The notes under the pieces were generated by a model, which did no database searches, was not told the DNA's origin, and saw nothing but the letters and a program-made list of their open reading frames with translations. Shown one piece after another: positions 20,563 to 36,617 of a stretch of DNA of 54,643 nt (positions are counted from its first letter, which is position 1; every line of letters begins with the position of its first letter). A program made the translations under genes and the position numbers. The stretch comes from Bacteroides sp. (GTDB lineage Bacteria; Bacteroidota; Bacteroidia; Bacteroidales; Muribaculaceae): assembly GCA_014802015.1 (NCBI GenBank), contig JAAVDB010000028.1, forward strand, positions 1 to 54,643, in the 5' to 3' direction.

Positions 20563-22056
20563 ATGAATACAAAACAAAAAATATATGCCCTCGCGTTACT
20601 TGCGCCTGCGATGTCAATGATGATGTCGTCGTGTGACAGTTATCTTGATGTCGAGCCCAAGGGTAAAACTCTTCTTGAGAGCACCGAGGATTACCTCGGT
20701 CTGCTCGAAGAGATCTCACCGACCTACGACCATGCTTACAGTCTCAATATCTGTAATGAGGCGTCATGGTATAAGGTGGAGGAGATTATGAACTATACTA
20801 CCCCGATCCGTTCAGCCGGTTTCTTATGGAATGATTCGTATGACCGCGCATCTCTTATGGTCGAGAATGCACTCTATAATAATTGCTACAGCCGCATCAC
20901 AAACTATAATGTGATTGTCAGCAACATCGACAAGGCCAAAGGCCCTCAGGAGGAGAAGGATCTCGCTATGGCGCAGGCCAAGATCATGCGTGCCTACAAC
21001 TATTTCTTTCTCGTCAACACCTTCGCGGCGCCTTACGATCCTGCCACAGCCGATCAGACCAGCGGTATAATCGTGCGTGAGAAGATGTTTGAGAGCATCG
21101 AAGATAAAGGTGTTCAGCAGTCGGTCGGATATACTTACCGTTTTATTCAGAAAGACATTGACGACGCTATCGCTGATCTGCCACACGTCGCACTCAACGC
21201 ATTCCGTCCTGACAAGACGTTCGGTTATGCGCTCAAGGCAAAGGTTCACCTGTTCAAGCGTGAGATCGACGAGTGTATCACCGCATGTCTCGATGCTCTT
21301 GCCGAGGCTCCGGCCGGCAATCACGAACTGTGGGACATGAATGTACAGTACAATACTCTGGCTCCTCAGGTCAAAATGCTTTTCGGTACCGACCGTGCCA
21401 TTGACGAGCCCAGATATATGGCTGTCAATGACCAGATCGAAACTATCTGGAAGAACGGTGTGGAGAAACCTTACGATTCTCCCGAAAATCTGCTCTATCA
21501 GTTCGGCACTACCTATACCGATCCCTTCCCCATGTATCTGTCATCGGATGTAATCGAGCTATTCGATCACGATGCCGACCTGCGCGAGCTCTACTGTCTG
21601 AAATACCGGACAGGTCACGCGACCGCACCTGAAGGACATCGTGAGTATGCTTCAAACGGTATACGCTGGAACCCCTCGGGAATGCGTCTCTCGGAGGTTT
21701 ACCTCATGCTCGCAGAGTGCTATGCCCGCAAAGGTTCCCCCTCGGACATCGTTACGGCAATGGACTATCTCGACCAGCTCCGCTCACACCGTAATATTAC
21801 ATCAAAATATACACGTCTGACCACTACCGATGCAGCCGAGGCCTTGAAGTTCGTGCGCGAGGAACGTAAACGCGAGCTCTTCTTAACCTGTAACGGCTTC
21901 TTCGATCTGCGTCGCTTCGCCACAGAGTTCAACGAGACCCAGACCAAGGTATTCGAGGGCGAGACCTATACACTTGCCCCCAACTCGACACTCCTCACAT
22001 TCCCCTTCCCATTGAAAGCAATGCAGACAAGCGACCTCAAACAGAATAGCAAATGA
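20563..22056 (+). CDS. SusD/RagB-family substrate-binding lipoprotein
   Basis: A 497-residue surface lipoprotein. The signal peptide ends in the lipobox MSSC, with lipidated Cys24, followed by DSYLDVEPKGKTLLESTEDY, the typical SusD opening. TPR-type helices and the C-terminal RagB/SusD region are visible (SGMRLSEVYLMLAECYARKG, FVREERKRELFLTCNGFFDL). The protein would cap the neighbouring SusC barrel and gate ligand entry. Its stop overlaps the TlpA-like start by 4 bp. Ligand not identifiable; oligopeptides are favoured by the operon context. Confidence 0.93.
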   Translation: MNTKQKIYALALLAPAMSMMMSSCDSYLDVEPKGKTLLESTEDYLGLLEEISPTYDHAYSLNICNEASWYKVEEIMNYTTPIRSAGFLWNDSYDRASLMVENALYNNCYSRITNYNVIVSNIDKAKGPQEEKDLAMAQAKIMRAYNYFFLVNTFAAPYDPATADQTSGIIVREKMFESIEDKGVQQSVGYTYRFIQKDIDDAIADLPHVALNAFRPDKTFGYALKAKVHLFKREIDECITACLDALAEAPAGNHELWDMNVQYNTLAPQVKMLFGTDRAIDEPRYMAVNDQIETIWKNGVEKPYDSPENLLYQFGTTYTDPFPMYLSSDVIELFDHDADLRELYCLKYRTGHATAPEGHREYASNGIRWNPSGMRLSEVYLMLAECYARKGSPSDIVTAMDYLDQLRSHRNITSKYTRLTTTDAAEALKFVREERKRELFLTCNGFFDLRRFATEFNETQTKVFEGETYTLAPNSTLLTFPFPLKAMQTSDLKQNSK

Positions 22057-23423
22057 TGAAACGTAACAGCTTTTCAATCCTCTCCCTCGGCATCCTCTGT
22101 GCCTCACTGCACATTAACGCGTCCGAACCGGCTACGGTGAGAATAACCAATAACTCGGGAGAGAATCTATTCTTTCAGCCCGAATCATTGCTTGGCTATA
22201 ACCGCATCTATGCAACGGACACTGTAATGAACGTGAGCGAACTGCCTGCCTATTACAGACTCGCTACGTCCGACGGATCATTCCATCCTGTGTTCCTTAC
22301 CGCAGGGTCGGAGACGGCAATCACAGTCGGAGACGATGGCAGTGTTGAAATCAAGGGTACTAATGAGCGTGAGAACAGGTTTATGAAAGAACATTCATAT
22401 ATCTGCCGCGTACCCGAGCCCATCAAGACCTATTCAAGCGAGTGGATTGACTACAATGAGGCTGAGATAGCGGCGCTCGACTCTATTATCGACGCCGAGG
22501 GACTTGATCCTGAGTTTGCGGCAATTCATAAGCTGTATAATCGTTTTACATTCCTCAATCAGCGTCTTGGTGGAGTGACATTTGCTCAGACGTTCCGTCC
22601 CGGTGGCCGAAATGTCGAACTGAGTGATAACTTCTATGACTTCCTCGGATCGCTGCGATTTACAGATGATCGCATAATGTTTATACCGAAATGGTTTAAT
22701 GTGATCAACGTTGCACTTGAGGTCATGGAGAAGCAGGGGCTGCTCGAAGTAGACAATGACAATTATATGAGTATATATGCGCGTGCGATCGACAACGAGA
22801 CTGTACGCTCGAATTATCTCATCGAACTGTTGCGCCTCACACTCAAACGCAATTATCTGAATGACATCGAGCGTCAGCTCCCCGCCATACGTCAGTACAT
22901 CACTGATCCGACAGCCGCTGCGCAGCTCCCCGACATTGAGGCACAGCTCGCGAAACAGATGGAAGCGACTGCCAATACAGCAGCCGGAACTCCGATGCCG
23001 GAATTTACCTGCAAGACTGTGGATGGCAAGGAATATAGCCTCTCAGACTTCAAGGGCGACTATGTCATTGTCGACTTCTGGTTCACGGGTTGCGTTCCCT
23101 GTCGTGCCGAGATGCCTTACTTTGATAAAGTTGCAGCTGATTTTGACGGTCGCGGAGTGAAATTCGTCTCACTCTCGCTTGACACAGGTGATGAGCTTTA
23201 TGCCACCTGGGAACAGATGATGCGCGAGAAACCACATGCTCCGGGAGTGCTGAGTGTAAACCTCCCCGGAGGATTCACCTCTCCCCTGCTCGGACAGCTC
23301 AACATTCACGGTGTGCCCCGAATAATGCTATTGGACCGTGAGGGTAAGATCGTCGAGAGTTATGCCAAGCGTCCCTCTGATCCCAAACTCCGCCAGCAGC
23401 TTGAAAATCTTATAAGCCGGTAA
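22053..23423 (+). CDS. TlpA-like thioredoxin-fold protein
   Basis: A 456-residue exported protein. Residues 1-23 are a signal peptide and residues about 24-310 an alpha/beta N-terminal region of unknown role, resembling DUF4369-type TlpA partners. Residues about 315-455 form a TlpA/AhpC-type thioredoxin domain (AGTPMPEFTCKTVDGKEYSL, VIVDFWFTGCVPCRAEMPYF) with the redox pair Cys350-Cys353, the cis-Pro region HGVPRIMLLD and a complete C-terminus. It would reduce or shuffle disulfides outside the cytoplasm. As last gene of the protease-SusCD operon it may keep the C10 protease cysteine reduced or act on imported peptides; that link is inference. Confidence 0.87.
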   Translation: MMKRNSFSILSLGILCASLHINASEPATVRITNNSGENLFFQPESLLGYNRIYATDTVMNVSELPAYYRLATSDGSFHPVFLTAGSETAITVGDDGSVEIKGTNERENRFMKEHSYICRVPEPIKTYSSEWIDYNEAEIAALDSIIDAEGLDPEFAAIHKLYNRFTFLNQRLGGVTFAQTFRPGGRNVELSDNFYDFLGSLRFTDDRIMFIPKWFNVINVALEVMEKQGLLEVDNDNYMSIYARAIDNETVRSNYLIELLRLTLKRNYLNDIERQLPAIRQYITDPTAAAQLPDIEAQLAKQMEATANTAAGTPMPEFTCKTVDGKEYSLSDFKGDYVIVDFWFTGCVPCRAEMPYFDKVAADFDGRGVKFVSLSLDTGDELYATWEQMMREKPHAPGVLSVNLPGGFTSPLLGQLNIHGVPRIMLLDREGKIVESYAKRPSDPKLRQQLENLISR

Positions 23424-23455
23424 TATTACCGCACACATCCCGTTACTATTCTTTC

Positions 23456-23497
23456 GAGGACAGATACAGCAATCCTGTATCTGTCCTCACTCTTTTT
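23456..23497 (+). terminator. Terminator of the C10-RagAB-TlpA operon
   Basis: GAGGACAGATACAG at 23456-23469 pairs perfectly (14 bp) with CTGTATCTGTCCTC at 23475-23488 around a 5-nt loop, followed by ACTCTTTTT. This isolates the operon from the oxalate cluster. Confidence 0.92.
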
Positions 23498-23646
23498 ATA
23501 TATAATAGTATCATATAATTTCCGATAAATAATCATCCGATTTCAACCTTTTCGTTTCTGCGTTGTTTTAATTTTAGAAATTCAAATTAGAAAGCAATTT
23601 CAAAGTAAATATTATATCATCAATTCTAAAAACACACATTACTATT

Positions 23647-24978
23647 ATGAACACCGCACCTCTTCAGGGAATTAAGATCATCGATTTTACCGAGGTCCAG
23701 TCGGGCCCTTCATGTACACAATTGCTCGCATGGCTTGGCGCCGACGTTATCAAGATTGAACGTCCGGGCGTAGGCGATGCTACACGTAAGGAGCTCCAGT
23801 TTGATCCTAATCTCCCGAGCTATTATTTCCTCCAGCTCAATTCAGACAAGAAATCACTTACCCTTGATGCCAAGACCCCTGACGGCAAGGCTATTCTTAC
23901 CAAGCTCATCCAGTCGGCTGACGTATTCATCGAGAATCTTCACCCGGGCGCTATGGATAAGCTCGGTTTCAGTTGGGAAGTAGTCCACAAGCTTAATCCT
24001 AAGTGTATCTACGGTACCATCAAGGGTTTCCCTCTCTCATCAAAGTATAAGGATCTTAAGGCATACGAGCCTATCGCTCAGGTGACCGCTGCTGCCGCAT
24101 CGACCACCGGCTGGTATGACGGCGAGTATAACATTCCTACTCAGAGTGGCGCCGCCCTCGGTGACTCTAACACCGGTATGCATCTTACCATCGGTATCCT
24201 TGCCGCGCTTATGCAGCGTGAGAAGACCGGCGAGGGTTGCTACGTATATCAGTCTATGCACAATGCATGTCTTAACCTCTGCCGTATCAAGACCCGTGAC
24301 CAGCTCACACTTGACAAGATCGGTTATCTTACCCAGTTCCCGCAGTATCCCGACGGAAAGTTCGGCGATTGCGTTCCCCGTTCAGGCAACATCGAGGGCG
24401 GCGGTGTTCTCGGCTGGACTTACAAATGTAAACCTGCCGGTGGCCTTGACTCAGAGATTGATGCAAACAACTATGTATACATCATCCTTCAGCGTGGCGA
24501 GAAAGAGTTCCAGCTTGCCTGCGAGGGTCTCGGATTCCAGGATTGGCTTACTAACCCTGACTTCAATACGGCCGATGCACGTGACAAGCACAAAGCGGAA
24601 ATCTACAAACGTATCGGCGAATGGACAGCCGATAAGACCAAGTATGAGGTTACCGAAATCCTCGGCAAGTATGGCGTGCCTGTAGGCCCTGTCCTCTCTA
24701 CCAAGGAGATGATGAGTGATGAAAGCCTCTATGACGGCAATACCCTCGTCCGCATTAATCAGGGTGGCGAGATCGGTGAATTTGTCACCGTGGGTGTACC
24801 TTTCACCATGAGCAACTTCCAGCCTACTTACGGCCCCGCTCCTTCACTCGGCGGAAATACCGACGAAGTCCTCAAGGCTTACGGATATACTGACGATCAG
24901 ATAGCCGGATTTGCCAAGAACGGTACGACCGCTCCCATGCCCAAACCCGCAGCACCTGCAGCGCCTGCTTCCAAATAA
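23647..24978 (+). CDS. frc: Formyl-CoA (oxalate) CoA-transferase
   Basis: A 443-residue class III CoA-transferase that moves CoA from a donor thioester, classically formyl-CoA, onto oxalate to give oxalyl-CoA. Similarity to Oxalobacter Frc runs the full length: DFTEVQSGPSCTQLLAWLGA, VIKIERPG, KAYEPIAQ with the active Tyr140, SGAALGDSNTGMHLTIGILA with the covalent-intermediate Asp173, and the flexible glycine loop EGGGVLGW. Two pocket positions differ by hand alignment: Oxalobacter Met44 is Ala45 and Trp48 is Glu49, so donor preference may differ. The last 16 residues form an unusual Pro/Ala tail (TAPMPKPAAPAAPASK). It is first of four genes with oxc, an AEC permease and a PFOR. Only a weak promoter-like TAATTTTA (23569-23576) lies upstream. 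Confidence 0.93.
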   Translation: MNTAPLQGIKIIDFTEVQSGPSCTQLLAWLGADVIKIERPGVGDATRKELQFDPNLPSYYFLQLNSDKKSLTLDAKTPDGKAILTKLIQSADVFIENLHPGAMDKLGFSWEVVHKLNPKCIYGTIKGFPLSSKYKDLKAYEPIAQVTAAAASTTGWYDGEYNIPTQSGAALGDSNTGMHLTIGILAALMQREKTGEGCYVYQSMHNACLNLCRIKTRDQLTLDKIGYLTQFPQYPDGKFGDCVPRSGNIEGGGVLGWTYKCKPAGGLDSEIDANNYVYIILQRGEKEFQLACEGLGFQDWLTNPDFNTADARDKHKAEIYKRIGEWTADKTKYEVTEILGKYGVPVGPVLSTKEMMSDESLYDGNTLVRINQGGEIGEFVTVGVPFTMSNFQPTYGPAPSLGGNTDEVLKAYGYTDDQIAGFAKNGTTAPMPKPAAPAAPASK

Positions 24979-25013
24979 GCTTACAAAATAGATCAACTGA
25001 CTAATTAAAATTC

Positions 25014-25076
25014 AAGAGGGGACAGTTGACCGATTGTCCCGCCCTACGGGATCGGGTCGGCGATTGCCCCCTCTTT
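25014..25076 (+). other. frc-oxc intergenic RNA hairpin
   Basis: The outer arms AAGAGGGGACA (25014-25024) and TGCCCCCTCTT (25066-25076) pair at 10 of 11 positions. Inside, GACCGAT pairs with ATCGGGTC (one bulge) and TCCCG pairs with CGGGA around a CCCTA loop, giving one long nested stem. Only TTTCC follows, so it is a poor terminator and may be a stabiliser, processing site or partial terminator. Confidence 0.8.
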
Positions 25077-25099
25077 CCAAACATCACAACTAAGAAACT

Positions 25100-26848
25100 A
25101 TGGCAACAACAAATACAACTCCCGCATCGTCAACACCTCAGGCACCTCACTTCCCCGAACAGGTGACCGGCATGTACGTGCTCGCACGTGCACTCAAGAA
25201 TGTGGGTATTGAAAACGTCTATGGCCTCGTCGGTATACCTATTACCGAGGCCGCATATCTCGTACAGGATCAAGGCATACGTTTTGTCGGATTCCGTCAT
25301 GAACAGCAGGCCGGTATGGCAGCAGCCACCGAAGGTTACCTTACCAAGAAACCGGGTGTGCTTATGACCGTATCATCACTCGGATTTATGAATGGCCTTA
25401 CAGCTACGGCCAATGCTACCGTCAACTGTTATCCTATGATTCAGATCTCAGGTGCTACCGACCCGATGATGGTGGATATGAGAATGGGTACATACGAAGA
25501 GATGGATCAGTACAACACAGCCCGTCCTCTCGTCAAGGCCGTATTCCGCTGCTACAAGGCCGAGGATATTCCTTCGGCTGTAACCCGAGCATACCGAGCC
25601 GCCGTTTCCGGCCGTCCCGGCGGTGTCTATATCGACATGACTACTCCTGCACTCGGCCAGATTATGAATCGCGAGGATGCAGACAAACTGTTCTATGAAC
25701 CGGTTGACGTCTATTCACCTGTCGCTCCCAATCAGGCAGCTGTCGATCGTGCTGTCGAGATTCTTACCTCGGCCAAGCGTCCTGCTATCCTTCTCGGTAA
25801 GGGTGCCGCATACGCTCAGGTTGACGATAAGATCAAGACTCTTATCGAGAAATACAATATTCCCTACCTCCCGATGTCAATGGCCAAAGGCCTTATGCCC
25901 GATGACGGTCCCCTCAGCGCACTGTCTTGTCGATCTACCATTATGGAGAAGTCCGACGTGGTCATGGTAATCGGAGCACGACTCAACTGGATGCTGTCCT
26001 TCGGACGCGGTAAGTGGAACCCTGATATGAAGTTCATTCAGCTCGATGTCGAACCTCAGGAGATTGATGTCAACGTGCCTATCGCTGCACCTGTAGTCGG
26101 CGATATGGGCTTGTCACTCGATGCCATCCTCGCCAAGCTCCAGAATGCCAAGATGAGCGCCGATCCCACATGGGTAACATCACTCCAGGCCGAGACCAAG
26201 GAGAAAAATGCAAAATTCCAGGCTCGTCTTCAGGCTAACAAGGATGCCAGTCCTATGGACCACTGGACAGCTCTCGGAGTGATCAAACCTATAATCGAAA
26301 GCAATCCTGACATTATCCTCGTAAACGAGGGAGCCAATACTCTTGATGACACTCGTGATGCGATCAACATGTCGCTCCCCCGTCATCGTGTCGACTGTGC
26401 TACATGGGCTATCATGGGCATGGGTATGGGCTCGGCGATCGGTGCTGCCGTAGGTACCGGCAAACAGGTTGTTGCCATCGAGGGTGACTCGGCATTCGGA
26501 TTCTCCGGCATGGACTTCTCGACCATCTGCCGATTCAAACTTCCTGTCACAGTAGTGATCTTCAATAACGGTGGTATCTATAACGGTATCGGCAAGCCTA
26601 TGGACAACACGACCGACCCCGCGCCTACTACCCTTGACATTAATGCCCGTTACGATAAACTCGGTGAAGCATTCGGCGCACAGACCTACTACGTACAGAC
26701 ACCTGAAGAGCTTGACAAGGCCCTCAAAGAGAGCATCGCAAGCAAGAAGCCGTGTCTGATCGATGTACAGCTCGCCGCCGACTCGGGTGCTGAGTCAGGC
26801 CACATCGGTTATCTTAATCCTGCACCTATCCAGCAGATTACGGTATAA
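25100..26848 (+). CDS. oxc: Oxalyl-CoA decarboxylase
   Basis: A 582-residue thiamine-diphosphate enzyme converting oxalyl-CoA to formyl-CoA and CO2. Clear landmarks shared with Oxalobacter Oxc: YGLVGIPITE, the activating Glu68 in FRHEQQAG, YEEMDQYNTARP, GRPGGVYIDM, ILLGKGAAYAQVDDKIKTL, LPMSMAKGLMP, VLVNEGANTLDDTRD (opening ILVNEG here), and the ThDP-Mg motif from GDSAFGFSGMDF (462 on) to FNNGGIYNG (about 488-496). Length matches the family apart from a Thr/Ser/Pro-rich N-terminal extension of about 12 residues. It recycles formyl-CoA for the preceding CoA-transferase. Cytoplasmic, homotetrameric in characterised relatives. Confidence 0.96.
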   Translation: MATTNTTPASSTPQAPHFPEQVTGMYVLARALKNVGIENVYGLVGIPITEAAYLVQDQGIRFVGFRHEQQAGMAAATEGYLTKKPGVLMTVSSLGFMNGLTATANATVNCYPMIQISGATDPMMVDMRMGTYEEMDQYNTARPLVKAVFRCYKAEDIPSAVTRAYRAAVSGRPGGVYIDMTTPALGQIMNREDADKLFYEPVDVYSPVAPNQAAVDRAVEILTSAKRPAILLGKGAAYAQVDDKIKTLIEKYNIPYLPMSMAKGLMPDDGPLSALSCRSTIMEKSDVVMVIGARLNWMLSFGRGKWNPDMKFIQLDVEPQEIDVNVPIAAPVVGDMGLSLDAILAKLQNAKMSADPTWVTSLQAETKEKNAKFQARLQANKDASPMDHWTALGVIKPIIESNPDIILVNEGANTLDDTRDAINMSLPRHRVDCATWAIMGMGMGSAIGAAVGTGKQVVAIEGDSAFGFSGMDFSTICRFKLPVTVVIFNNGGIYNGIGKPMDNTTDPAPTTLDINARYDKLGEAFGAQTYYVQTPEELDKALKESIASKKPCLIDVQLAADSGAESGHIGYLNPAPIQQITV

Positions 26849-26861
26849 TTCACATTAGATA

Positions 26862-26912
26862 ATCCGGAGCAGTTTACCGCTGCGGTCAGCGGCTCCGGAT
26901 TTCTATTATTAC
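26862..26912 (+). terminator. oxc-AEC intergenic hairpin, possible partial terminator
   Basis: ATCCGGAGC at 26862-26870 pairs perfectly with GCTCCGGAT at 26892-26900, with a small inner ACCG/CGGT stem, followed by TTCTATTATT. Strong stem with an interrupted T-tract. Confidence 0.7.
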
Positions 26913-26934
26913 TAACTCTCAATTACAACTATTT

Positions 26935-27903
26935 ATGGAACACATTATTCTATACGCGATCGTTCCTATTATCGTAGTCATGCTCGCAGGATATATATCC
27001 GGTAAGAAGGGGATATTCTCAGGCGATGATGCCAAGAAGTTCAATAAAGTCGTACTTGATTACGCCCTTCCTGCCGCACTATTCGTATCAATCGTCCAGT
27101 CGACTCGTGAAATGCTTGCCGCAGACATCAAATTGTCGCTCATAGCATTGGTTGGTATCATGGGCTGTTTTATGCTCGTATACTATGTATTCAAACTTTT
27201 CAAATCCAATTCAGGAGCTGATGCCGCAATCTCAGCTCTTATCAGTGGATCTCCTACCATCGGATTCCTCGGATTTGCAGTGCTTGAGCCTATTTTCGGT
27301 ACTACCCCTGCAGTGGCTCTTGTCGTCGCAATCGTCAGCATCGTGGTCAATGCAGTAGGTATTCCTGTCGGACTCTCGCTTATGAATGCATCGCTTGAGA
27401 AACAGCAGCCCGGCTCAACCAAGAAGGAAAGTGCATGGCTACCTGTACTTCACGCTCTCGAACAGCCTGTAGCCTGGGCTCCTATTCTTGCAGTCGTATG
27501 GGTACTCGCCGGTATCCCCTGGCCACATTGGGCAAGTCCTTCCTTTGACCTGATTAAGGGAGCCAACGCATCAATGGCCGTATTCTCTGCCGGTATCACA
27601 CTGTCCTCGATCAAGGTTGATATTAACTGGCAGGCAGTTCTCGGTTCTATCATGAAGATGGTAATGATGCCTGCCGTACTTCTTATCCTCGGCCTTGTAT
27701 TCCACATGGATCCCACTAACCTCAAGATGCTTGTTGTAGCCGGTGCTCTTCCTCCTGCATTCTCAGGTATCATTATCGCCGACGAATACAACACCTACGT
27801 TGCTACCGGTACATCTTCATTGACTCTGTCCGTCATACTGTTTATCGGATTCTGTCCTCTCTGGTTGTGGATTACCGACCTTTGCGTAGGAGGAGGTTTC
27901 TAA
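26935..27903 (+). CDS. AEC-family permease, probable oxalate/formate transporter
   Basis: A 322-residue membrane protein of the auxin-efflux-carrier (AEC) family with about ten hydrophobic helices in two inverted halves. Landmarks: YAIVPIIVVMLAGYISGKKG, KFNKVVLDYALPAALFVSIV, the substrate-region ISGSPTIGFLGFAVLEPIFG and the C-terminal GALPPAFSGIIIADEYNT. E. coli carries an AEC member (YfdV) beside its Frc and Oxc homologues, so the same combination here supports a role in oxalate uptake, formate export or exchange, replacing the MFS antiporter OxlT of Oxalobacter. Direction and substrate are inferred from context. It is flanked on both sides by intergenic hairpins. Confidence 0.85.
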   Translation: MEHIILYAIVPIIVVMLAGYISGKKGIFSGDDAKKFNKVVLDYALPAALFVSIVQSTREMLAADIKLSLIALVGIMGCFMLVYYVFKLFKSNSGADAAISALISGSPTIGFLGFAVLEPIFGTTPAVALVVAIVSIVVNAVGIPVGLSLMNASLEKQQPGSTKKESAWLPVLHALEQPVAWAPILAVVWVLAGIPWPHWASPSFDLIKGANASMAVFSAGITLSSIKVDINWQAVLGSIMKMVMMPAVLLILGLVFHMDPTNLKMLVVAGALPPAFSGIIIADEYNTYVATGTSSLTLSVILFIGFCPLWLWITDLCVGGGF

Positions 27904-27936
27904 CTTAGTCCTGTTAAAATAATCCTTTAACTCAAT

Positions 27937-27995
27937 AAACGGGCATACGGATCAGCCGCTCTCCGCGACATCATCCTTATGCCTGTTTTTATTTA
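27937..27995 (+). terminator. AEC-PFOR intergenic hairpin with T-tract
   Basis: AAACGGGCATACGGAT at 27937-27952 pairs with ATCCTTATGCCTGTTT at 27973-27988 (15 of 16 including one G-U), followed by TTATTTATAA. This looks like a true intrinsic terminator although a same-strand gene starts only 10 bp later and no promoter motif lies between; readthrough may set PFOR dosage. Confidence 0.75.
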
Positions 27996-28004
27996 TAATA
28001 TTCT

Positions 28005-31000
28005 ATGGATAAACAGATACTTGACGGATGTACTGCTGCCGCCCATGTTGCCTTTGCCATGAGCGATGTTGCGACGATTTATCCTATCACCCCTATCGCA
28101 TCCATGGGGCAGACCGCACAGCAATGGGGCATCGCAGGACGACGTAATCTTATGGGACAGGCACTTGAGGTCCGTGAGATGGAAAGTGAGCTGGGTGCGG
28201 CCGGAGCTCTCCACGGAGCACTTGCCGCCGGAGCGCTTGCCACAACTTTTACATCATCGCAGGGTCTCATGCTTATGATACCTAACATGTACAAGATAGC
28301 AGGTGAATTGCTCCCGGCCGTATTTCATGTCGGATGTCGTTCGCTTGCCACACATGCACTGTCGATCTTCGGTGATCATCAGGATGTAATGGCGTGCAGG
28401 GCTACGGGTGTGACGATGTTGGCGTCATCATCAGTTCAGGAGACAATGGACCTTGCAGTGGTCGCACATCTTGCGGCAATTGAAGGCTCCCTCCCGGTAC
28501 TGCATTTCTTTGACGGATGGCGTACTTCATCTGAAATGGACACTATTGAAGTCATAGATTACGAAACAATACGTCCGATGGTCGATTGGGATAAGGTTAA
28601 TGTGTTCCGCAGACGCTCAATGAATCCCGAACATCCTGACCTGCGCGGATCCGCTCAGAATCCGGACGTGTATTTTCAAAACAGAGAAGCCGCTAATAAA
28701 TATTACGACGTATTCCCCTCTATCGTACAGTCCGCGATGGATAAAGTCGCACAAGCCACCGGCCGTCAGTATCACCTGATGGATTATCACGGAGCGCCTG
28801 ACGCTGACCGCGTGATCGTGATCATGGGGTCGGCCGCAGATGTTGTCAGTGAGACAGTCGATTATCTCAACAGCCGTGAAGGCTATAAGGTCGGAGTGAT
28901 TAAAGTCCATCTTTACCGACCCTTCCCCGTTGATGCATTGCGATCTGCTCTGCCAAAGAGCGTAAGGACTATTGCGGTAATTGATCGGACGAAAGAACCC
29001 GGCGCGCAGCATGAACCTTTATGCGAGGATGTTAAATCCGCACTTTACGATTTTACCCCTGACGGTGTGCAGATCAAGATATTGGGCGGTCGATATGGAC
29101 TGTCGAGCAAGGAGTTTGATCCATCCATGGTAAAAGTAATCTATGATGAGATGGCTCAACCTGATCCGCGCGAGACCTTTACTGTCGGAATCAACGACGA
29201 TGTCACTCATCTCTCACTTGACATCACTGACCATATCGAGACCTCAGCCTCGGCCGATACATATCAGGTTATACTTTACGGTATCGGTAACGACGGTACC
29301 GTCGGTGGCACCAAGCAGGTCGCATCTATCCTCGGAAATACTCCGGGGACGTATGCTCAGGCCTATTTCAGTTACTCTGCCAAGAAATCGGGTGGCTATA
29401 CGATTTCACAACTCCGTATGGGACATAAGCCTATAACATCCGCTTATGGTATCGAGAATGCTGATTACATCGGATGTCATAAAGCATCGTACGTACATCG
29501 TTTCCCGATGCTCGATAATATAAAGGATGGTGGTATCTTCGTACTCAACTCGCCGTGGACAGCTGAACAGATGCCGGACAAGTTGCCGCTCGCATTGCGT
29601 CGCCGGATTGCCGAGAAACATCTTAAATTCTACAACATCGATGCGGATGCCATCGCTGCTGAGGTAGGACTTCTGCCACGTATCAATATGCCGATGGAGA
29701 CCATACTGTTATACCTGAGTGAGATTATTCCGTTCAAGCTCAGTTATCCGCAACTTCTTCAGAAAATCCGTGAGACATATATTCACGAAGGAGGCGAGGT
29801 CGTGGAACGTAACATCAAAGCGGTGTCCATGGCAGTTGATGCTCTTAAAGAGATAGATTACAGTTCTATTGACGGATGGACTACACAGGATGTCTCACAA
29901 CATGTCGCCTCTCCTATTTTCGCTAACGAGCGGATCAAGGATTTTATCGAGAAAATTCACACACCGTGTATCAAAGGGCGCGGTGATACCATACCTGTCT
30001 CAGCATTCACTCCGGACGGCACTATGCCGATGGGGACAACAGCCTATGAACATCGTCGCATCGCAACGCGTGTCCCCGTCTGGGACGCAGACAAATGTGT
30101 GCAGTGCACGGAGTGCAGTCTTGTATGTCCTCACGCCGCCATACGCCCGTATGTATTTGACTCGGCCGAAGCCGCATCCGCTCCCGATGATATAATTACC
30201 ATTGAGGCAAAGGGAGCCCCGTCGCTTTCGGGATACCGTTTCAGGATTCAGACTTATCCCGAAGACTGTCTCGGTTGTTCATCATGCTCACTGATATGTC
30301 CGGGCCATGCGCTCACGATGACTCCGATTGAGGATGTGGTTGACACGGAGGTCAAGCGTCTTGACTGGGTAAAGAGCAATGTTCGTCCGAAGGATTATCT
30401 GCTCCCCGCAGTGACTGTAAATGGTTCTCAGCTACGCACGCCGTGTCTGGAATTTTCCGGAGCATGCGCCGGTTGTGGCGAGACTCCCTACGTAAAGCTG
30501 CTCACCCAGCTCTTCGGTCCGCGGCTACTCATCGCTAACGCCACCGGTTGCAGTTCGATATGGGGCGCGAATTATCCGTCCAATGCCTATTGTACCGACC
30601 ACAACGGACGAGGCCCCGCCTGGGGAAATTCGCTGTTTGAGGATAATGCCGAATACGGGTTCGGAATGCTCGTATCGATTCGTCAACGTCGTGAACGCGT
30701 AGCAAAGATGGTCAAGGATCTGATTGACTCGCCTGACACTCTCCCCTATCTCAAGGCCCCGTTACAGGCATGGTATGATGCCAAGGATGACCCCGATCTG
30801 TCTGCATCAACCGGCGTGCAACTTGCTGCAATGCTCACCCCTGTCCGCGATGCCTCTCCGGCATACGCATCGTTGCTTGAATGTGCCGATATGTTTGCGA
30901 CCAAGTCAGTCTGGGCCATCGGTGGTGACGGATGGGCATACGACATAGATTTTGCCGGACTTGACCATGTGCTTGCATCGGGTGAGCCTATAAAGATTCT

Positions 31001-31613
31001 TGTCATGGACACCGAGTGCTATTCCAACACAGGCGGTCAGACCTCAAAGGCCACACCGCGTTCGGCTGTGGCGAAATACTCCCCCGAAGGTAAATCCACC
31101 CCGAAGAAGAATCTCGGTCGCATGATGATGACTTACGGCAATGTATATGTGGCATCGATTTCACTCGGTGCGAACTATCAGCAGGCGATCGACGCGCTTG
31201 CCGAGGCCGAGCGTTATCCGGGTCCTGCCATCGTCATAGCCTACTGCCCATGTCTAAATCACGGTATACGTCCGGGCCTTGGCCATTCGATTATCGAGGA
31301 ACGCCGTGCGGTCGAGTCGGGCTACTGGCCGCTGTATCGCTTCAATCCCGTAGCATACGCCAAGGGCAAAGAGCCTCTTACTATTGATCATGCCGTTCCC
31401 GGACCCGATAACAGTGGTAACAACGGTTCATCTTCACGTACGGCTTCCGAATCGTATAAGACACCTGAACCTGTCAGGGATGTCAAGCAGTACACCGACG
31501 CCGAAGACAGATATATCGACCTCGACATGATTTCATCTGTCCGATCGTCAATACTGCGACCCCAACTTCAGCAGGATTGTAACCGTGAAAATGATGAGTT
31601 GAAGAAAATCTGA
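28005..31613 (+). CDS. nifJ: Pyruvate:ferredoxin (flavodoxin) oxidoreductase
   Basis: A 1202-residue single-chain PFOR: pyruvate + CoA + oxidised ferredoxin to acetyl-CoA + CO2 + reduced ferredoxin, reversible. Domain I holds YPITP with Thr29, EMESE with Glu62 and CRSLATHALSIFGDHQDV with the carboxylate-binding Arg112. Two 4Fe-4S motifs are complete (Cys698/701/704/708 and Cys755/758/761/765). Domain VI carries CAGCGETPY, GGDGWAYDIDFAG and CYSNTGGQTSKATPRSA. The loop usually reading YPITPSSPM is YPITPIASM here. The C-terminus ends in a Ser/Asn/Gly-rich stretch and a charged tail instead of the common RYKSL-type ending. It follows the oxalate genes in the same direction. Pyruvate is the default substrate; use of another 2-oxoacid such as glyoxylate is possible but unproven. 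Confidence 0.92.
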   Translation: MDKQILDGCTAAAHVAFAMSDVATIYPITPIASMGQTAQQWGIAGRRNLMGQALEVREMESELGAAGALHGALAAGALATTFTSSQGLMLMIPNMYKIAGELLPAVFHVGCRSLATHALSIFGDHQDVMACRATGVTMLASSSVQETMDLAVVAHLAAIEGSLPVLHFFDGWRTSSEMDTIEVIDYETIRPMVDWDKVNVFRRRSMNPEHPDLRGSAQNPDVYFQNREAANKYYDVFPSIVQSAMDKVAQATGRQYHLMDYHGAPDADRVIVIMGSAADVVSETVDYLNSREGYKVGVIKVHLYRPFPVDALRSALPKSVRTIAVIDRTKEPGAQHEPLCEDVKSALYDFTPDGVQIKILGGRYGLSSKEFDPSMVKVIYDEMAQPDPRETFTVGINDDVTHLSLDITDHIETSASADTYQVILYGIGNDGTVGGTKQVASILGNTPGTYAQAYFSYSAKKSGGYTISQLRMGHKPITSAYGIENADYIGCHKASYVHRFPMLDNIKDGGIFVLNSPWTAEQMPDKLPLALRRRIAEKHLKFYNIDADAIAAEVGLLPRINMPMETILLYLSEIIPFKLSYPQLLQKIRETYIHEGGEVVERNIKAVSMAVDALKEIDYSSIDGWTTQDVSQHVASPIFANERIKDFIEKIHTPCIKGRGDTIPVSAFTPDGTMPMGTTAYEHRRIATRVPVWDADKCVQCTECSLVCPHAAIRPYVFDSAEAASAPDDIITIEAKGAPSLSGYRFRIQTYPEDCLGCSSCSLICPGHALTMTPIEDVVDTEVKRLDWVKSNVRPKDYLLPAVTVNGSQLRTPCLEFSGACAGCGETPYVKLLTQLFGPRLLIANATGCSSIWGANYPSNAYCTDHNGRGPAWGNSLFEDNAEYGFGMLVSIRQRRERVAKMVKDLIDSPDTLPYLKAPLQAWYDAKDDPDLSASTGVQLAAMLTPVRDASPAYASLLECADMFATKSVWAIGGDGWAYDIDFAGLDHVLASGEPIKILVMDTECYSNTGGQTSKATPRSAVAKYSPEGKSTPKKNLGRMMMTYGNVYVASISLGANYQQAIDALAEAERYPGPAIVIAYCPCLNHGIRPGLGHSIIEERRAVESGYWPLYRFNPVAYAKGKEPLTIDHAVPGPDNSGNNGSSSRTASESYKTPEPVRDVKQYTDAEDRYIDLDMISSVRSSILRPQLQQDCNRENDELKKI

Positions 31614-31641
31614 CCCTGAAGCAGTTTATATATTCCTACGT

Positions 31642-31694
31642 CAGCTCCGTGCCGGTGTCACGCTTGAATAGCGACATCGGCACGGACTGTTTTT
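31642..31694 (+). terminator. Terminator after PFOR
   Basis: CAGCTCCGTGCCGGTGTC at 31642-31659 pairs with GACATCGGCACGGACTG at 31673-31689 (one bulge, one G-U) and is followed by TTTTT. This closes the oxalate-PFOR unit. Confidence 0.9.
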
Positions 31695-31748
31695 AAGTGC
31701 GTTTTCTTTTTACAGAAAATAGTGCTTTTACAGGTAAAAAAATAGTGG

Positions 31749-31756
31749 TAACTTTG
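31749..31756 (+). promoter_or_regulatory. -7 element for the PepSY-cobUTSC unit
   Basis: TAACTTTG matches TAnnTTTG exactly. The expected transcript start is about 20-25 bp before the TTG start of the PepSY gene. Only a TTTT run (31726-31729) stands near the -33 position. Confidence 0.6.
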
Positions 31757-31783
31757 CACATATAATTTACATCATAACATACT

Positions 31784-32833
31784 TTGAAAAATTCTATTAT
31801 TCGCAGATTGCATCTCTGGTTGTCCATACCGTTTGGACTTGTAATCACCATAATATGTCTCTCGGGTTCAATTCTCGTATTTGAACGTGATTTCGGTTCT
31901 ATGGGACAGTATGAAGTTTGTCCTGATGGACGTGTCCCTCTGCCAATTGACAGCCTGCTCTCAGTTGCAAACAATTCAGTACCCGAGGGCAGCGCCATTG
32001 CAGGTATCATCACATATCCCGATTCATGCCACGCTTACAAGTTTATGCTTACCCGTCCGGCAATGGCCGCACTGTGGGTCGATCAGTACACAGGTGAAGT
32101 GATGCGTCCGTATCAACGTGCGGCAATATTCAAGTTCGCAAGTTCAGCCCATCGTCGGTTGTTCGGAACGACCAAAAGCAAGACCGGGAAACACATCATA
32201 GGTATCTGCACACTCTGTTTCGTCATAATCCTCATTACAGGTGTGATACTATGGTGGCCCCGATCGGCCAAAGATGTAGGTCATAAGCTGAAGATTCCCG
32301 CCGGTAAGGGTAAATATGCGTTCTGGCACGGCCTCCATTGTGCAGGAGGAATGTATATCACCGTAATACTTTTGGTCTGTGCCCTTTCAGGTCTGGCATG
32401 GTCATTTAAATGGTATAACCAAGGACTGTATGCCATCCTCGGATCAGAACAGGCCAAATCATCACGTCACAACAAACCGGCTGAGAATTATGCTGCCTGG
32501 CAGAATGTTTACGATTATGTCTCTGAAATCAATCCTTCGCGCGAGATAAGGATTTATCAGGGAGAGGCTGAAGTGTTATGCGGCGGTTATGGTAATCAGC
32601 AGGCCGCCGATACATATAAGTTTGATGCGGAAACGGGTACGGTTACTGATGTCATTATGTACGATGATCAGCCGAAATCAAGAAAAATCAAAGGTTGGCT
32701 CTACACCCTTCACGTCGGCAGCTGGTGTGGATGGTGGTCCAAAATACTTTATTTCATAATAATGCTTATCGGTGCTACCCTTCCGCTTACAGGCTACTAT
32801 ATGTGGATACACCGTATTAATCACAGACATTGA
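31784..32833 (+). CDS. PepSY-associated transmembrane protein, TTG start
   Basis: A 349-residue inner-membrane protein of the PepSY_TM (iron-regulated/PiuB-like) family. Opening KNSIIRRLHLWLSIPFGLVI is the classic first helix with an RxLHLW motif, followed by SGSILVFERDF, FASSAHRRLFG, a periplasmic PepSY segment, HGLHCAGGMYI and a final helix ending LTGYYMWIHRI. Such proteins are often linked to siderophore or metal uptake and may be ferric reductases with haem-ligand histidines. The only in-frame start that keeps the first helix is TTG at 31784, with a stop codon (TAA at 31775-31777) just upstream. Its stop overlaps the cobU start (TGATG), so it heads the plus-strand cobalamin arm; a role in corrinoid or metal handling is a guess. 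Confidence 0.8.
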   Translation: MKNSIIRRLHLWLSIPFGLVITIICLSGSILVFERDFGSMGQYEVCPDGRVPLPIDSLLSVANNSVPEGSAIAGIITYPDSCHAYKFMLTRPAMAALWVDQYTGEVMRPYQRAAIFKFASSAHRRLFGTTKSKTGKHIIGICTLCFVIILITGVILWWPRSAKDVGHKLKIPAGKGKYAFWHGLHCAGGMYITVILLVCALSGLAWSFKWYNQGLYAILGSEQAKSSRHNKPAENYAAWQNVYDYVSEINPSREIRIYQGEAEVLCGGYGNQQAADTYKFDAETGTVTDVIMYDDQPKSRKIKGWLYTLHVGSWCGWWSKILYFIIMLIGATLPLTGYYMWIHRINHRH

Positions 32834-33357
32834 TGATAGTGATGGGAAGACGTATTGTTATGATAACCGGCGGCCAGCGTTCAGGCAAAAGTGCTATTGC
32901 CGAGCGCATGACCCTTGAGATGACATCTAAGCCGGTGTATATCGCGACTGCACGTGTCTGGGATGACGAGTTCCGTCATCGCGTCGAGTTGCATCGCCAA
33001 CGGCGCGGTCCGGAGTGGACTACCTACGAGGCACCGTTACACACTGATGCTCTCCCGATCGGGGACGATGACACAGTGCTGTTTGACTGCGTGACGCTTT
33101 GGGCGACAAACTGGTTCTTTGAATGCAACGAAAATTCTGACCTCGCGCTCGCCGAGATGAAAAGCCGTGTCGACATCCTGACAACCCGATGCCGCAACAT
33201 AGTTTTCGTGACAAATGAGATCGGACTCGGCGGTGTGGCAGAGAACAGCATGCAGCGCCGGTTCACCGACCTTCAGGGGCTGATCAATCAATATATCGCA
33301 TCGATGGCCGACGAGGTTTATCTTGCTGTCTCCGGAATAAAAGTAAGAATCAAATAA
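32833..33357 (+). CDS. cobU: Adenosylcobinamide kinase / adenosylcobinamide-phosphate guanylyltransferase
   Basis: A 174-residue bifunctional enzyme that phosphorylates adenosylcobinamide and then adds GMP from GTP to give adenosylcobinamide-GDP. The P-loop GGQRSGKS is near the N-terminus, followed by [20 protein letters not shown] (the guanylylated His region), [27 protein letters not shown] and the YLAVSGI end. ATG at 32833 overlaps the preceding stop; another ATG at 32842 is possible. Next gene cobT begins 11 bp downstream. Confidence 0.94.
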
Positions 33358-33368
33358 AGAATATCTAT

Positions 33369-34409
33369 ATGAAAACTTTTGATATACAGCCGCTCGACCG
33401 AGCTCTTGAGCGCGATATAATTGATAAGATCGACAATCTCACCAAGCCTAAAGGTTCATTAGGTCGTCTTGAGGAACTGGCACTGCAACTGTGTCTTATA
33501 CAGAAAACACTTTCGCCTGAACTTCACGCCCCTACAAATGTGCTTTTTGCAGCAGATCACGGCATTATCGAAGAGGGTGTATCCGTATCTCCTAAAGAAG
33601 TCACATGGCAGCAACTCAGCCACTTCTCCAAGGGCGGTGCGGGCATTAACTTCCTGTGTGATCAGCACGGATTCACTCTGGTGCTCGTTGATGCCGGTGT
33701 CGATTATGACATTCCGTCCGGCCATGGCATTATCGATATGAAGGTACGTAAATCGACCAGAAATTATCTGCATGGGCCGGCCATGACTGAAGAAGAATTT
33801 GATCTTTGCCTCGAACGCGGTGCTAAGGTCGTTGACGAAATTGCTGACTCGACCGGTTGTAATATTATCAGTTTCGGAGAGATGGGCAGTGGCAATACAT
33901 CATCGTCATCAATATGGATGCACCTGTATACCGGCATACCGCTTGACAAATGTATCGGAGCCGGAGCCGGCCTTGATAATGAAGGTATCCGTCACAAATA
34001 CGATGTCTTGTCGCGTGCGGTTGCAGGATACAATGGTGATGGTTCGGTGCGTTCAAAACTCGCATGGTTCGGAGGCTACGAAATGGCTATGGCCGTCGGT
34101 GCTATGCTACGTGCGGCCGAACGCAGCATGACCGTCATCGTCGACGGATTTATTATGACAAGTTGTATCCTTGCGGCATCACAACTTTATCCTGCTGTGC
34201 TTGACTATGCAATCTTCGGCCACCAGGGTGACGAGAGCGGTCACAAACTCATGCTTGAGGCTATGGGTGTCCGTGCCCTCCTGCACCTCGACCTGCGTCT
34301 TGGCGAAGGCTCGGGTGCCGTATGCGCCTATCCCATTATTGAGTCAGCTGTAAGAATGATCAATAACATGGACTCGTTCGGCTCGGTAAATGTCACAAAA
34401 TATTTCTGA
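33369..34409 (+). CDS. cobT: Nicotinate-nucleotide:dimethylbenzimidazole phosphoribosyltransferase
   Basis: A 346-residue enzyme that makes alpha-ribazole phosphate from nicotinate mononucleotide and a lower-ligand base. Motifs: [67 protein letters not shown] (opening IFGHQG) and the catalytic Glu313 in [13 protein letters not shown]. Length is normal. It lies between cobU and cobS in a tight operon. Which base is used cannot be read from the sequence. Confidence 0.95.
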
Positions 34410-34418
34410 CATCGGATT

Positions 34419-35180
34419 ATGAAGAGAGTATTAGCCGCCTTTACACTGTTCACACGACTCCCCTTCTGGCGCATAACGAATATACCTCAGGAATGTTATT
34501 CTCAGGCGGTTGTCTTTTGGCCACTGACAGGATGGCTGACAGGCGGATTTACAGCTGCAATAATGTATGCCTGTTCGTTCGTCATGCCGTGGCCTATGGC
34601 TGTAATCACTGGGCTTGTGGCAAAACTGCTGTTGACGGGAGCATTGCATGAAGACGGACTTGCTGATTTCTGTGATGCCTTCGGGTGTGGAGGAGGCAAA
34701 GAGCGGATACTCTCGATAATGAAAGACTCTCACATCGGCACATACGGAGTCATCGGGCTTATCATGTATTATACACTGACGATTGCCATCCTATCATCGA
34801 CCGATGTCATTATAGCAGTCCTTGCTGTGGCTGCATGCGATCCGTTTGCGAAACTTTGCGCAGGACAACTCACCAACATATTGCCATACGCCCGTCCCGA
34901 AGGTGCTAAAAACAAGATTTCATACAGCCGCATGAATCTATGGCAGATGATGGTTCAGATACTTTTCGGCATCCTACCTGTTGCTATGTTCATATATCTT
35001 TTCCCTCGGCTAACGATGATTCTCGCATTATTGGCTCCTGTCACTGCAACAGGTCTGCTTGTATGGTATTTGCGCACTAAGATCGGAGGGTATACAGGTG
35101 ACTGTTGCGGAGCCGCATACCTGATATGTGAACTCACGATGCTGATGAGTGTCAACCTGATATGGTGGAATGCCCTATGA
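34419..35180 (+). CDS. cobS: Adenosylcobinamide-GDP ribazoletransferase (cobalamin synthase)
   Basis: A 253-residue polytopic inner-membrane enzyme joining adenosylcobinamide-GDP and alpha-ribazole (phosphate). The opening AFTLFTRLPFWRI, the acidic metal-binding motif HEDGLADFCDAFGCGGGKER, then IMKDSHIGTYGVIGL and the C-terminal GGYTGDCCGAAYLICEL are diagnostic. Its stop codon overlaps the cobC start (ATGA), so translation is coupled. Confidence 0.94.
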   Translation: MKRVLAAFTLFTRLPFWRITNIPQECYSQAVVFWPLTGWLTGGFTAAIMYACSFVMPWPMAVITGLVAKLLLTGALHEDGLADFCDAFGCGGGKERILSIMKDSHIGTYGVIGLIMYYTLTIAILSSTDVIIAVLAVAACDPFAKLCAGQLTNILPYARPEGAKNKISYSRMNLWQMMVQILFGILPVAMFIYLFPRLTMILALLAPVTATGLLVWYLRTKIGGYTGDCCGAAYLICELTMLMSVNLIWWNAL

Positions 35181-35707
35181 GAATAATCCTCATACGCCAC
35201 ACGTCGGTCGCAGTGACGCGCGGCACTTGTTATGGCTGTACCGATGTGCCGCTTGCCGAAACATTCCCTGCAGAGGCCGCTGAGGTCAAGCGCCATCTTG
35301 CCGGATACAATTTTGACATTGTATACAGCAGTCCGTTATCACGATGTCGCAAGTTGGCCGGGTATTGCGGATTTCCTGATCCTGTAATTGACGCCCGTCT
35401 TATGGAGATGAATTTCGGTGAATGGGAAATGCAACGTTTCGACACGATCACTGATCCACGTCTTCAGCAGTGGTACGATGACTTTCTTAACGTAGCTCCG
35501 ACCGGCGGAGAGTCATCAATGGATCAGGCCATGAGGTTGAAATCATTTTTTGATTCGCTTGATCGTTCTGACCCTGATCGTACGATCGGGGTGTTTACAC
35601 ACGGTGGGATACTAATACATGCCTCTGTCCTGCTCGGCGGCAAGACGTATGACGAAGCGTTCCGTGCGCTTCCCGATTATGGCGCTATATTAGAATTGCA
35701 CATCTGA
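35177..35707 (+). CDS. cobC: Alpha-ribazole phosphatase, histidine phosphatase family
   Basis: A 176-residue phosphoglycerate-mutase-like phosphatase. The catalytic start LIRHTSV gives Arg7-His8, followed by GTCYGCTDVPLAETF, SSPLSRCRKLA, the acidic MEMNFGEWE motif and the second histidine in VFTHGGI. It removes phosphate from alpha-ribazole-5'-phosphate or adenosylcobalamin-5'-phosphate. The start at 35177 overlaps the cobS stop and is preferred to an in-frame ATG 15 bp upstream. The 3' end overlaps convergent cbiB by 23 bp. Confidence 0.9.
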   Translation: MRIILIRHTSVAVTRGTCYGCTDVPLAETFPAEAAEVKRHLAGYNFDIVYSSPLSRCRKLAGYCGFPDPVIDARLMEMNFGEWEMQRFDTITDPRLQQWYDDFLNVAPTGGESSMDQAMRLKSFFDSLDRSDPDRTIGVFTHGGILIHASVLLGGKTYDEAFRALPDYGAILELHI

Positions 35708-36617
35708 CCAATCCTGCGAGCACTACGCTCAATACCTCGGCCACACGATTGATACGCACGGCTGTGAGCATGTCGTCAGATGTCAACTGCCTGTCGACGG
35801 TTCCGATAAATGGTTTTTCTACCGTCTCGCCGAAATAATCATGTGGACCTCCGAAGCGGCATCCGAGTATCCCTGCCAGTGCAGCCTCGGGATAACCGCT
35901 GTTGGGACTTGCATGTTTAGGTCCATACTTGGCTACGAAGCGCAGCAGACTCAAGTGCCCGGATGCCACGACCATAAGCAGTGCTGTCAATCTGGCAGGT
36001 ATGTAATTAGCCACATCATCGATACGGGCGGCCACCGTGCCGAACTGTCTGTAGCGTACCGAGCGGTAGCCTATCATCGAGTCAAGCGTATTGACCATTT
36101 TATATGCCAGCATACCGGGCACTCCGAGCAGAGCGTACCAGAATAGAGGTGCGATCACCCCGTCGCTCAGATTCTCGGCAAGAGTCTCAAGCGCAGCCGT
36201 ACGGATTTCATTGTCTGACAACTGAGCCGTGTCACGCCCTACTATTCTTGCCACCTGACGTCTACCCTCCTCAAGCGATCTGTCAGCGGCCTTGAAAACC
36301 ATTCTGACCTCACGTATAAGAGTTGTGCCTGCCAGACAGTAGAAGACAAGCACGGCCTCTACGGCAATCTTTACCCACAGCCACGGATCAAGCAATCCTG
36401 TCAGCCACAGTGTGAGTGCGTATGTCGCGATAATAAGGCCTATTGCCATCACCCCACCTTTCAGTCTGCGGTGCCCTCCTCGGTTCAAGCGATGTTCAAA
36501 AAAAGAAATGATACGGCCAAATCCTACTATCGGATGGGGCAATCGGGCAGGATCTCCGAGACAAAGATCAAGAATCCAGCCGAGGACAAGAGGAAGCAAT
36601 ATGAGTGAAACTGTCAT
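35685..36617 (-). CDS. cbiB: Adenosylcobinamide-phosphate synthase
   Basis: A 310-residue membrane enzyme that attaches (R)-1-amino-2-propanol phosphate to adenosylcobyric acid. Landmarks: GWILDLCLGDPARLPHPIVG, TAALETLAENLSDGVIAPLF, YKMVNTLDSMIGYRSVRYR, VANYIPARLTALLM and HASPNSGYPEAALAGILG (split here as SPNSGYPEAALAG). It is the last gene of the minus-strand cobalamin arm and probably also has its own promoter (TAACTTTG on the complement, 36638-36645). Its stop lies within the 3' end of cobC. Confidence 0.94.
   Translation of the reverse strand: MTVSLILLPLVLGWILDLCLGDPARLPHPIVGFGRIISFFEHRLNRGGHRRLKGGVMAIGLIIATYALTLWLTGLLDPWLWVKIAVEAVLVFYCLAGTTLIREVRMVFKAADRSLEEGRRQVARIVGRDTAQLSDNEIRTAALETLAENLSDGVIAPLFWYALLGVPGMLAYKMVNTLDSMIGYRSVRYRQFGTVAARIDDVANYIPARLTALLMVVASGHLSLLRFVAKYGPKHASPNSGYPEAALAGILGCRFGGPHDYFGETVEKPFIGTVDRQLTSDDMLTAVRINRVAEVLSVVLAGLVRCAILI

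Follow-up and report, generated by a model that had tools for sequence, protein, structure and literature searches.

In the genome of Bacteroides sp. (Muribaculaceae; assembly GCA_014802015.1, contig JAAVDB010000028.1), the oxalate unit known from this family, frc, oxc and an AEC-family permease, is followed by one accessory gene for a second pyruvate:ferredoxin oxidoreductase (PFOR), here termed PFOR-2, which we tentatively propose, with a probability of roughly 45%, sustains the pyruvate step of the cell under oxalate load. The stretch analysed, hereafter the window, is 54,643 nt long and comes from a 2.63-Mb genome that is 87% complete and 5.5% contaminated. An initial annotation, made from the sequence alone, had described frc, oxc, an AEC permease and a single-chain PFOR as collinear; open reading frame calls and family searches bore out the coordinates, the shared + strand and the families of all four (Table 1), although the permease scores below the YfdV cut-off.

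Frc (formyl-CoA:oxalate CoA-transferase; CoA, coenzyme A) and Oxc (oxalyl-CoA decarboxylase) both exceed their NCBIfam equivalog cut-offs, identifying the pair as an frc–oxc oxalate catabolic unit. The best solved match of Frc is E. coli YfdW (1pqy, 461 bits) and that of Oxc the oxalyl-CoA decarboxylase 2q27 (603.7 bits). The GAALGD motif, which we take to be the site of the catalytic Asp of Frc, occurs in all 99 full-length Frc rows, 80 of them distinct. The top family of the permease is YfdV (NF007384, 316.6 bits, under the equivalog cut-off of 404), and its match to PF03547 places it in the AEC family, presumably the K07088 of orthology-based surveys. PFOR-2 matches TIGR02176 from residue 5 to residue 1170 in one chain and is thus a single-chain PFOR.

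PFOR-2 is not the generic PFOR of its genome, a possibility ruled out by the presence of two full-length PFORs. The other, PFOR-1, is encoded on another contig (G000:C38, 33536-36895) and is 47% identical to PFOR-2. Across 61 genomes (this one and relatives), 59 of which have some PFOR match at E 1e-100 or better, full-length matches fall into two groups, one at 59-80% identity to PFOR-2 and one, that of PFOR-1, at about 45-49%; partial matches spread wider, N-terminal pieces reaching 56%. In a tree of 109 PFORs, built by a quick method with a midpoint root and without the Moorella and Desulfovibrio chains, after removal of rows with fewer than 950 aligned residues (for example L195 and L251), a branch with SH-aLRT support of 100 separates the 47 PFOR-2 rows from all others. 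Muribaculaceae PFOR-1 clusters with other Bacteroidales PFORs in this tree, and PFOR-2 stands apart from that branch, which rules out a recent duplication of PFOR-1. A search for a donor found nothing above about 50% full-length identity in 296 genomes of the phylum or in a plasmid collection (in the phylum search 25 of 38 records were listed, and all 38 are below 60% identity). Over the same 15 genome pairs PFOR-2 has evolved faster, with 58-79% identity versus 85-93% for PFOR-1. The last 69 residues of PFOR-2 do not align with the solved chains, including 1b0p, the Desulfovibrio africanus PFOR, of which an oxygen-protecting C-terminal domain is, we assume, a feature. Beside the Azospirillum nifJ at L251, PLSDB labels a 99-bp stretch (67-165) a TLA-3 beta-lactamase, a label that looks spurious given its length.

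The association of PFOR-2 with oxalate genes recurs across the family. Of 29 relative genomes (31 oxc loci), 17 have PFOR-2 directly 3' of the permease; several of the others are contig ends. Of 80 named loci with oxc, the best of 166, 58 extend at least 3.7 kb past the permease, and 17 of the 58 have PFOR-2 downstream; at one further locus, L131, it is instead divergent and adjoins frc. Several records holding the unit are named Paenibacillus, Staphylococcus or Clostridium; the names look wrong, as the oxc loci are Muribaculaceae-like. We further counted both genes in a sample of 297 genomes of the family, with an E-value limit of 1e-80 for oxc, under which a fragment such as that of G023 is scored absent, and taking PFOR-2 at an identity of at least 55% among the matches listed, so that weak fragments may be missed. 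On these counts oxc is present in 179 genomes and PFOR-2 in 83: 77 genomes have both, 6 PFOR-2 only, 102 oxc only and 112 neither, so that oxc is carried by 77 of the 83 genomes with PFOR-2 versus 102 of the 214 without it. The corresponding figures for the 204 high-quality genomes are 60, 1, 73 and 70, that is, oxc in 60 of 61 genomes with PFOR-2 versus 73 of 143 without. When labels were permuted within genera that vary (20,000 shuffles, all genomes), 66 co-occurrences were counted where 57.1 would be expected (p 0.00015). In 36 of the 77 genomes with both, PFOR-2 begins 3' of oxc on the same strand, at a distance of 1.07-1.46 kb, into which the permease fits, and of 2.5 kb in one; it is divergent from oxc in one further genome (G273:C50), and 11 were left unscored, their oxc coordinates not being among the matches listed. 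Outside the family, 24 genomes from other families of the order held no convincing oxc, the best matches (E about 1e-45) being at the level of acetolactate-synthase-like relatives. The placement of the PFOR with the oxalate genes in the initial annotation thus stands: it is a second, distinct enzyme, often directly downstream and nearly confined to genomes with oxc. A conserved downstream PFOR, for which that annotation had suggested a survey, is found in the fractions given above, and is missing from many oxc genomes.

The catalytic residues of PFOR-2 are intact. By D. africanus numbering, Thr31, Glu64, Arg114 and Asn996, which we take to be the residues with pyruvate-site roles, do not vary in the alignment (47 of 47 PFOR-2 rows, 62 of 62 other PFOR rows), and neither do the twelve cluster cysteines. 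PFOR-2 has the motif YPITP, and oxalate oxidoreductase carries Arg at that Thr (YPIRP). This motif, together with a score of 84.7 bits against NF045791 (alpha subunit; cut-off 500), rules out PFOR-2 as an oxalate oxidoreductase. Because the pyruvate-site residues are intact and Thr stands in place of the oxalate oxidoreductase Arg, the sequence favours pyruvate, and PFOR-2 would be a pyruvate-type enzyme. Against this constant core, PFOR-2 has 21 diagnostic positions, at which its fixed residue is almost never seen elsewhere. For six of them (A32, E60, L63, G110, C1005 and C1081) a catalytic residue or a ligand of the proximal cluster is no more than 3 residues away, an enrichment near the active site among PFOR-2-conserved sites of p 0.019; C1005 is shared with the E. 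coli PFOR (L254) and so is not unique to PFOR-2.

We propose that PFOR-2 keeps the pyruvate step running while the neighbouring enzymes consume oxalate. The permease would import oxalate, Frc would transfer CoA from formyl-CoA to it, and Oxc would decarboxylate the resulting oxalyl-CoA to formyl-CoA and CO2; formate would exit, probably through the single FocA-type channel found in this incomplete genome, in which no pyruvate formate-lyase was found. In the oxalate-loaded cell PFOR-2 would keep pyruvate + CoA <-> acetyl-CoA + CO2 + reduced ferredoxin going, and the supply of acetyl-CoA and ferredoxin would thereby be maintained during oxalate use. For PFOR-2 itself we infer substrate, direction, co-expression with the oxalate genes and tolerance of oxalate. 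Since PFOR-1 already provides the basic activity, an oxalate-specific reason is needed for a second enzyme. Oxalate is an analogue of pyruvate and of its enol in several enzymes, and PFOR-2 is perhaps an oxalate-tolerant isozyme. A more specific form of this idea, which we regard as unlikely, is a dedicated self-protection isozyme in which the surroundings of the active site (E60, L63, G110, C1005, C1081) have been altered to exclude oxalate with the catalytic residues unchanged, leaving the pyruvate step open while the ordinary PFOR is poisoned by imported oxalate.

Several results weigh against a role for PFOR-2 in oxalate use. The plain Fisher tests of co-occurrence (2e-14 for all genomes, 4e-13 for the high-quality ones) ignore shared descent, and within genera the association in high-quality genomes alone is weak (31 observed, 28.4 expected, p 0.06). 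PFOR-2 was not found in 102 of the 179 oxc genomes; oxalate breakdown therefore does not need it, and it is an accessory gene. The two genes are on separate contigs in 29 of the 77 genomes with both. Among 18 of these 29 cases that were read, 17 have no frc, oxc or AEC gene in the stretch read beside PFOR-2, the contig of G011, one of these, stopping 193 nt upstream of PFOR-2; in G019 the permease lies just 5' of PFOR-2 at the contig edge. No partner gene recurs beside relocated PFOR-2 in more than 2 of 20 neighbourhoods, and neighbour sets are shared within the pairs G001/G006, G011/G019, G086/G124 and G132/G225. On a PFOR-2 tree whose 45 labelled rows comprise 28 linked and 17 unlinked ones, linkage changes 9 times, and well-supported branches force 5 of these changes, so the genes have parted or joined repeatedly. 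Conversely, oxc was not found in 6 genomes with PFOR-2, one of which (G225) is 97% complete; its PFOR-2 lacks about 63 residues in one stretch (query 893-967), with the frame intact on both sides, which is no decisive sign of decay. The active-site enrichment depends on its definition: when conservation was required in both groups there was none at any of three thresholds (p 0.33, 0.33 and 0.65), so that the two tests of the diagnostic residues disagree. Finally, a search of the available literature for articles joining PFOR, pyruvate and inhibition by oxalate found none, and the idea of tolerance therefore draws on analogue chemistry.

The transcriptional layout also bears on whether the four genes act together. 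The initial annotation had placed a strong terminator only after the PFOR gene. That claim fails, as each of the three gaps within the unit holds a strong hairpin with a z-score comparable to that of the hairpin after PFOR-2 (Table 1). Such structures are conserved: in relatives, distinct gaps of 60-200 nt have z < -2 in 57 of 60 cases for frc-oxc, 59 of 63 for oxc-AEC and 23 of 23 for AEC-PFOR, against 35 of 85 control same-strand gaps from the window and the 80 named loci (z-scores of window gaps come from dinucleotide shuffles, those of relatives' gaps from mononucleotide shuffles); without the length filter the counts for the three gaps are 64 of 84, 62 of 84 and 24 of 25. A simple terminator scan listed neither the three gap hairpins nor the one after PFOR-2, returning only 23456-23488 and intragenic sites. 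The hairpin upstream of frc is probably a terminator separating it from the TlpA-like gene, and that after PFOR-2 is likely a terminator as well; those in the gaps may function in processing or stability, or as leaky terminators. In the AEC-PFOR gap the 3' arm enters a U-rich stretch and the hairpin ends 16 nt 5' of the PFOR-2 start, so that a PFOR-2 transcript must begin 5' of the hairpin or read through it. The absence of promoter motifs between the genes, as originally described, was confirmed: TAnnTTTG, which we take to be the -7 box of Bacteroidetes, does not occur on the + strand between 13332 and 30890, and sigma-70-like matches in 22000-33000 are at chance level (16 found, 15.5 expected), with no gap promoter beyond chance. 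This absence says little, because frc also has no TAnnTTTG upstream.

Taken together, separate contigs, the many oxc genomes without PFOR-2, the weak within-genus signal and the hairpins, which may divide the genes into separate units, would all fit a PFOR-2 that adjoins the oxalate genes but has no functional connection to oxalate, both traits being accessory in the same lineages. We consider this improbable, as PFOR-2 is nearly absent where oxc is absent (6 of 118 genomes, five of the six under 90% complete), occupies the same position in several genera and, where it lies away from the unit, still occurs in genomes with oxc.

Another possible chemical link is priming: acetyl-CoA made by PFOR-2 would donate the CoA with which the formyl-CoA/oxalyl-CoA cycle begins, and Frc itself would accept acetyl-CoA. 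E. coli has a second transferase, YfdE, which uses acetyl-CoA to prime oxalate use (PMC3720670), and Frc is the sole class III CoA-transferase found in the present genome, with no YfdE counterpart, which at 87% completeness is weak evidence. The glycine-rich loop of Frc/YfdW has been tied to substrate choice (PMC3720670). Of 99 full-length Muribaculaceae Frc rows (80 distinct), 86 have the loop GN[ITQ]EG[GS]GVLGW where YfdW has GNAGGGGQPGW, so that EG[GS]GVLGW replaces GGGGQPGW, and the other 13 fall outside the search pattern; the altered loop may change the acyl-CoA donor. Even so, priming of this kind is quite unlikely to explain PFOR-2, as catalytic amounts of acetyl-CoA should suffice, PFOR-1 would already make it, and Frc scores as a formyl-CoA transferase.

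PFOR-2 might alternatively run in reverse as a pyruvate synthase, fixing the CO2 released by Oxc onto acetyl-CoA with reduced ferredoxin and so directing oxalate carbon to biomass. PFOR is able to act as a pyruvate synthase (PMC10176493), but gut CO2 should be plentiful and PFOR-1 could do the same; none of the sequence features tested tells direction, and no ferredoxin, hydrogenase or formate dehydrogenase was found among the four genes and two flanking genes that were family-searched, which leaves this role quite unlikely. That PFOR-2 has switched substrate, converting glyoxylate to formyl-CoA and CO2 or using another small 2-oxoacid and thereby supplying the Frc donor formyl-CoA, is very improbable: the diagnostic positions near the active site, the faster divergence of PFOR-2 and the changed Frc loop would agree with it, but the enrichment of those positions is lost when both groups are conserved, Thr is kept where oxalate oxidoreductase has Arg, no glyoxylate-forming enzyme was found among the six genes tested, and the unchanged pyruvate-site residues make glyoxylate the least supported of the three chemical links that the initial annotation offered.

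The three-gene core has been described before; as far as our literature searches go, its association with a PFOR has not. Ormerod et al. (2016, PMC4936053) reported frc and oxc with an adjacent permease in 19 of 30 genomes of S24-7, the same family as here, and the unit in the window has the same three genes with the permease adjoining oxc; the words ferredoxin and pyruvate do not appear in the main text of that article, so that a PFOR goes unmentioned, and PFOR-2 is the addition made here. Lagkouvardos et al. (2019, PMC6381624) listed oxc, frc, K07088 and a formate transporter as family-specific, in a main text from which the word ferredoxin is absent. The unit also resembles the E. coli yfdXWUVE oxalate and acid-tolerance operon, in which YfdW is Frc, YfdU is Oxc and YfdV is a membrane transport protein (PMC3720670). 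The likeness drawn in the initial annotation holds for gene content, and the W-U-V order is kept, whereas YfdX and YfdE are absent from the four-gene unit and PFOR-2 is extra. Compared with the solved single-chain PFORs of TIGR02176 (6cin, presumably from Moorella, and 1b0p and 7plm, presumably from Desulfovibrio), PFOR-2 has the same domains, catalytic residues and cluster ligands, but it is at most about 50% identical over its full length to any PFOR found outside its clade and has its own diagnostic residues. Oxalate oxidoreductase (5c4i) shares the OFOR superfamily and an oxalate-related context, and differs in its Arg at YPI(T/R)P and in its separate subunits rather than a single chain. 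By title and abstract opening, no article tying a PFOR to frc or oxc was found among the matches listed, a search covering neither supplements nor subscription papers; PMC10176493, PMC12764544 and PMC4318912 hold both kinds of term yet, in their accessible text, draw no link between PFOR and oxalate, and the last reports that both are over-represented in one group of infants.

Downstream of the unit, a TAnnTTTG box at 31749-31756 points to a separate promoter for the PepSY-type gene at 31784, about 28 nt further 3'. Genes at 32830-36617 read as CobU, CobT, CobS, CobC and CobD-like (cobalamin biosynthesis; labels by reading only), and a relative (53%) of the CobU-labelled gene lies directly 3' of the permease at locus L113.

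Table 1. Genes and RNA hairpins of the oxalate locus, in window coordinates
Feature	Coordinates	Strand	Score
Hairpin with T-rich tail, 3' of TlpA-like gene and 5' of frc	23456..23488	+	terminator scan; z -8.75 for 23424-23500
frc, formyl-CoA:oxalate CoA-transferase, 443 aa	23647..24978	+	TIGR03253 564 bits (cut-off 504.2)
Hairpin in frc-oxc gap (24979-25099)	25014..25075	+	-38.2 kcal/mol; z -4.77
oxc, thiamine diphosphate (ThDP)-dependent oxalyl-CoA decarboxylase, 582 aa	25100..26848	+	TIGR03254 755.6 bits (cut-off 739.4)
Hairpin in oxc-AEC gap (26849-26934)	26856..26905	+	-27.7 kcal/mol; z -6.53
AEC-family permease, YfdV-like, presumed oxalate carrier, 322 aa	26935..27903	+	PF03547 169.8 bits
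Hairpin in AEC-PFOR gap (27904-28004)	27937..27988	+	-24.0 kcal/mol; z -4.91
PFOR-2, single-chain pyruvate:ferredoxin oxidoreductase, second PFOR of the genome, 1202 aa	28005..31613	+	TIGR02176 1545 bits (cut-off 911)
Hairpin followed by T tract, 3' of PFOR-2	31642..31689	+	z -4.74 for 31614-31720

Most kidney stones consist mainly of calcium oxalate (PMC10258309), and Muribaculaceae are among the taxa that dominate the carriers of oxalate genes in a rodent gut metagenome (PMC12045624). A second PFOR in many of these carriers hints at an undescribed link between oxalate and pyruvate metabolism. If PFOR-2 is indeed an oxalate-tolerant isozyme, it would represent self-resistance within a catabolic pathway. 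Why some carriers of oxalate genes retain a second PFOR, almost always alongside oxc, is a testable question about how oxalate breakdown relates to central anaerobic metabolism.

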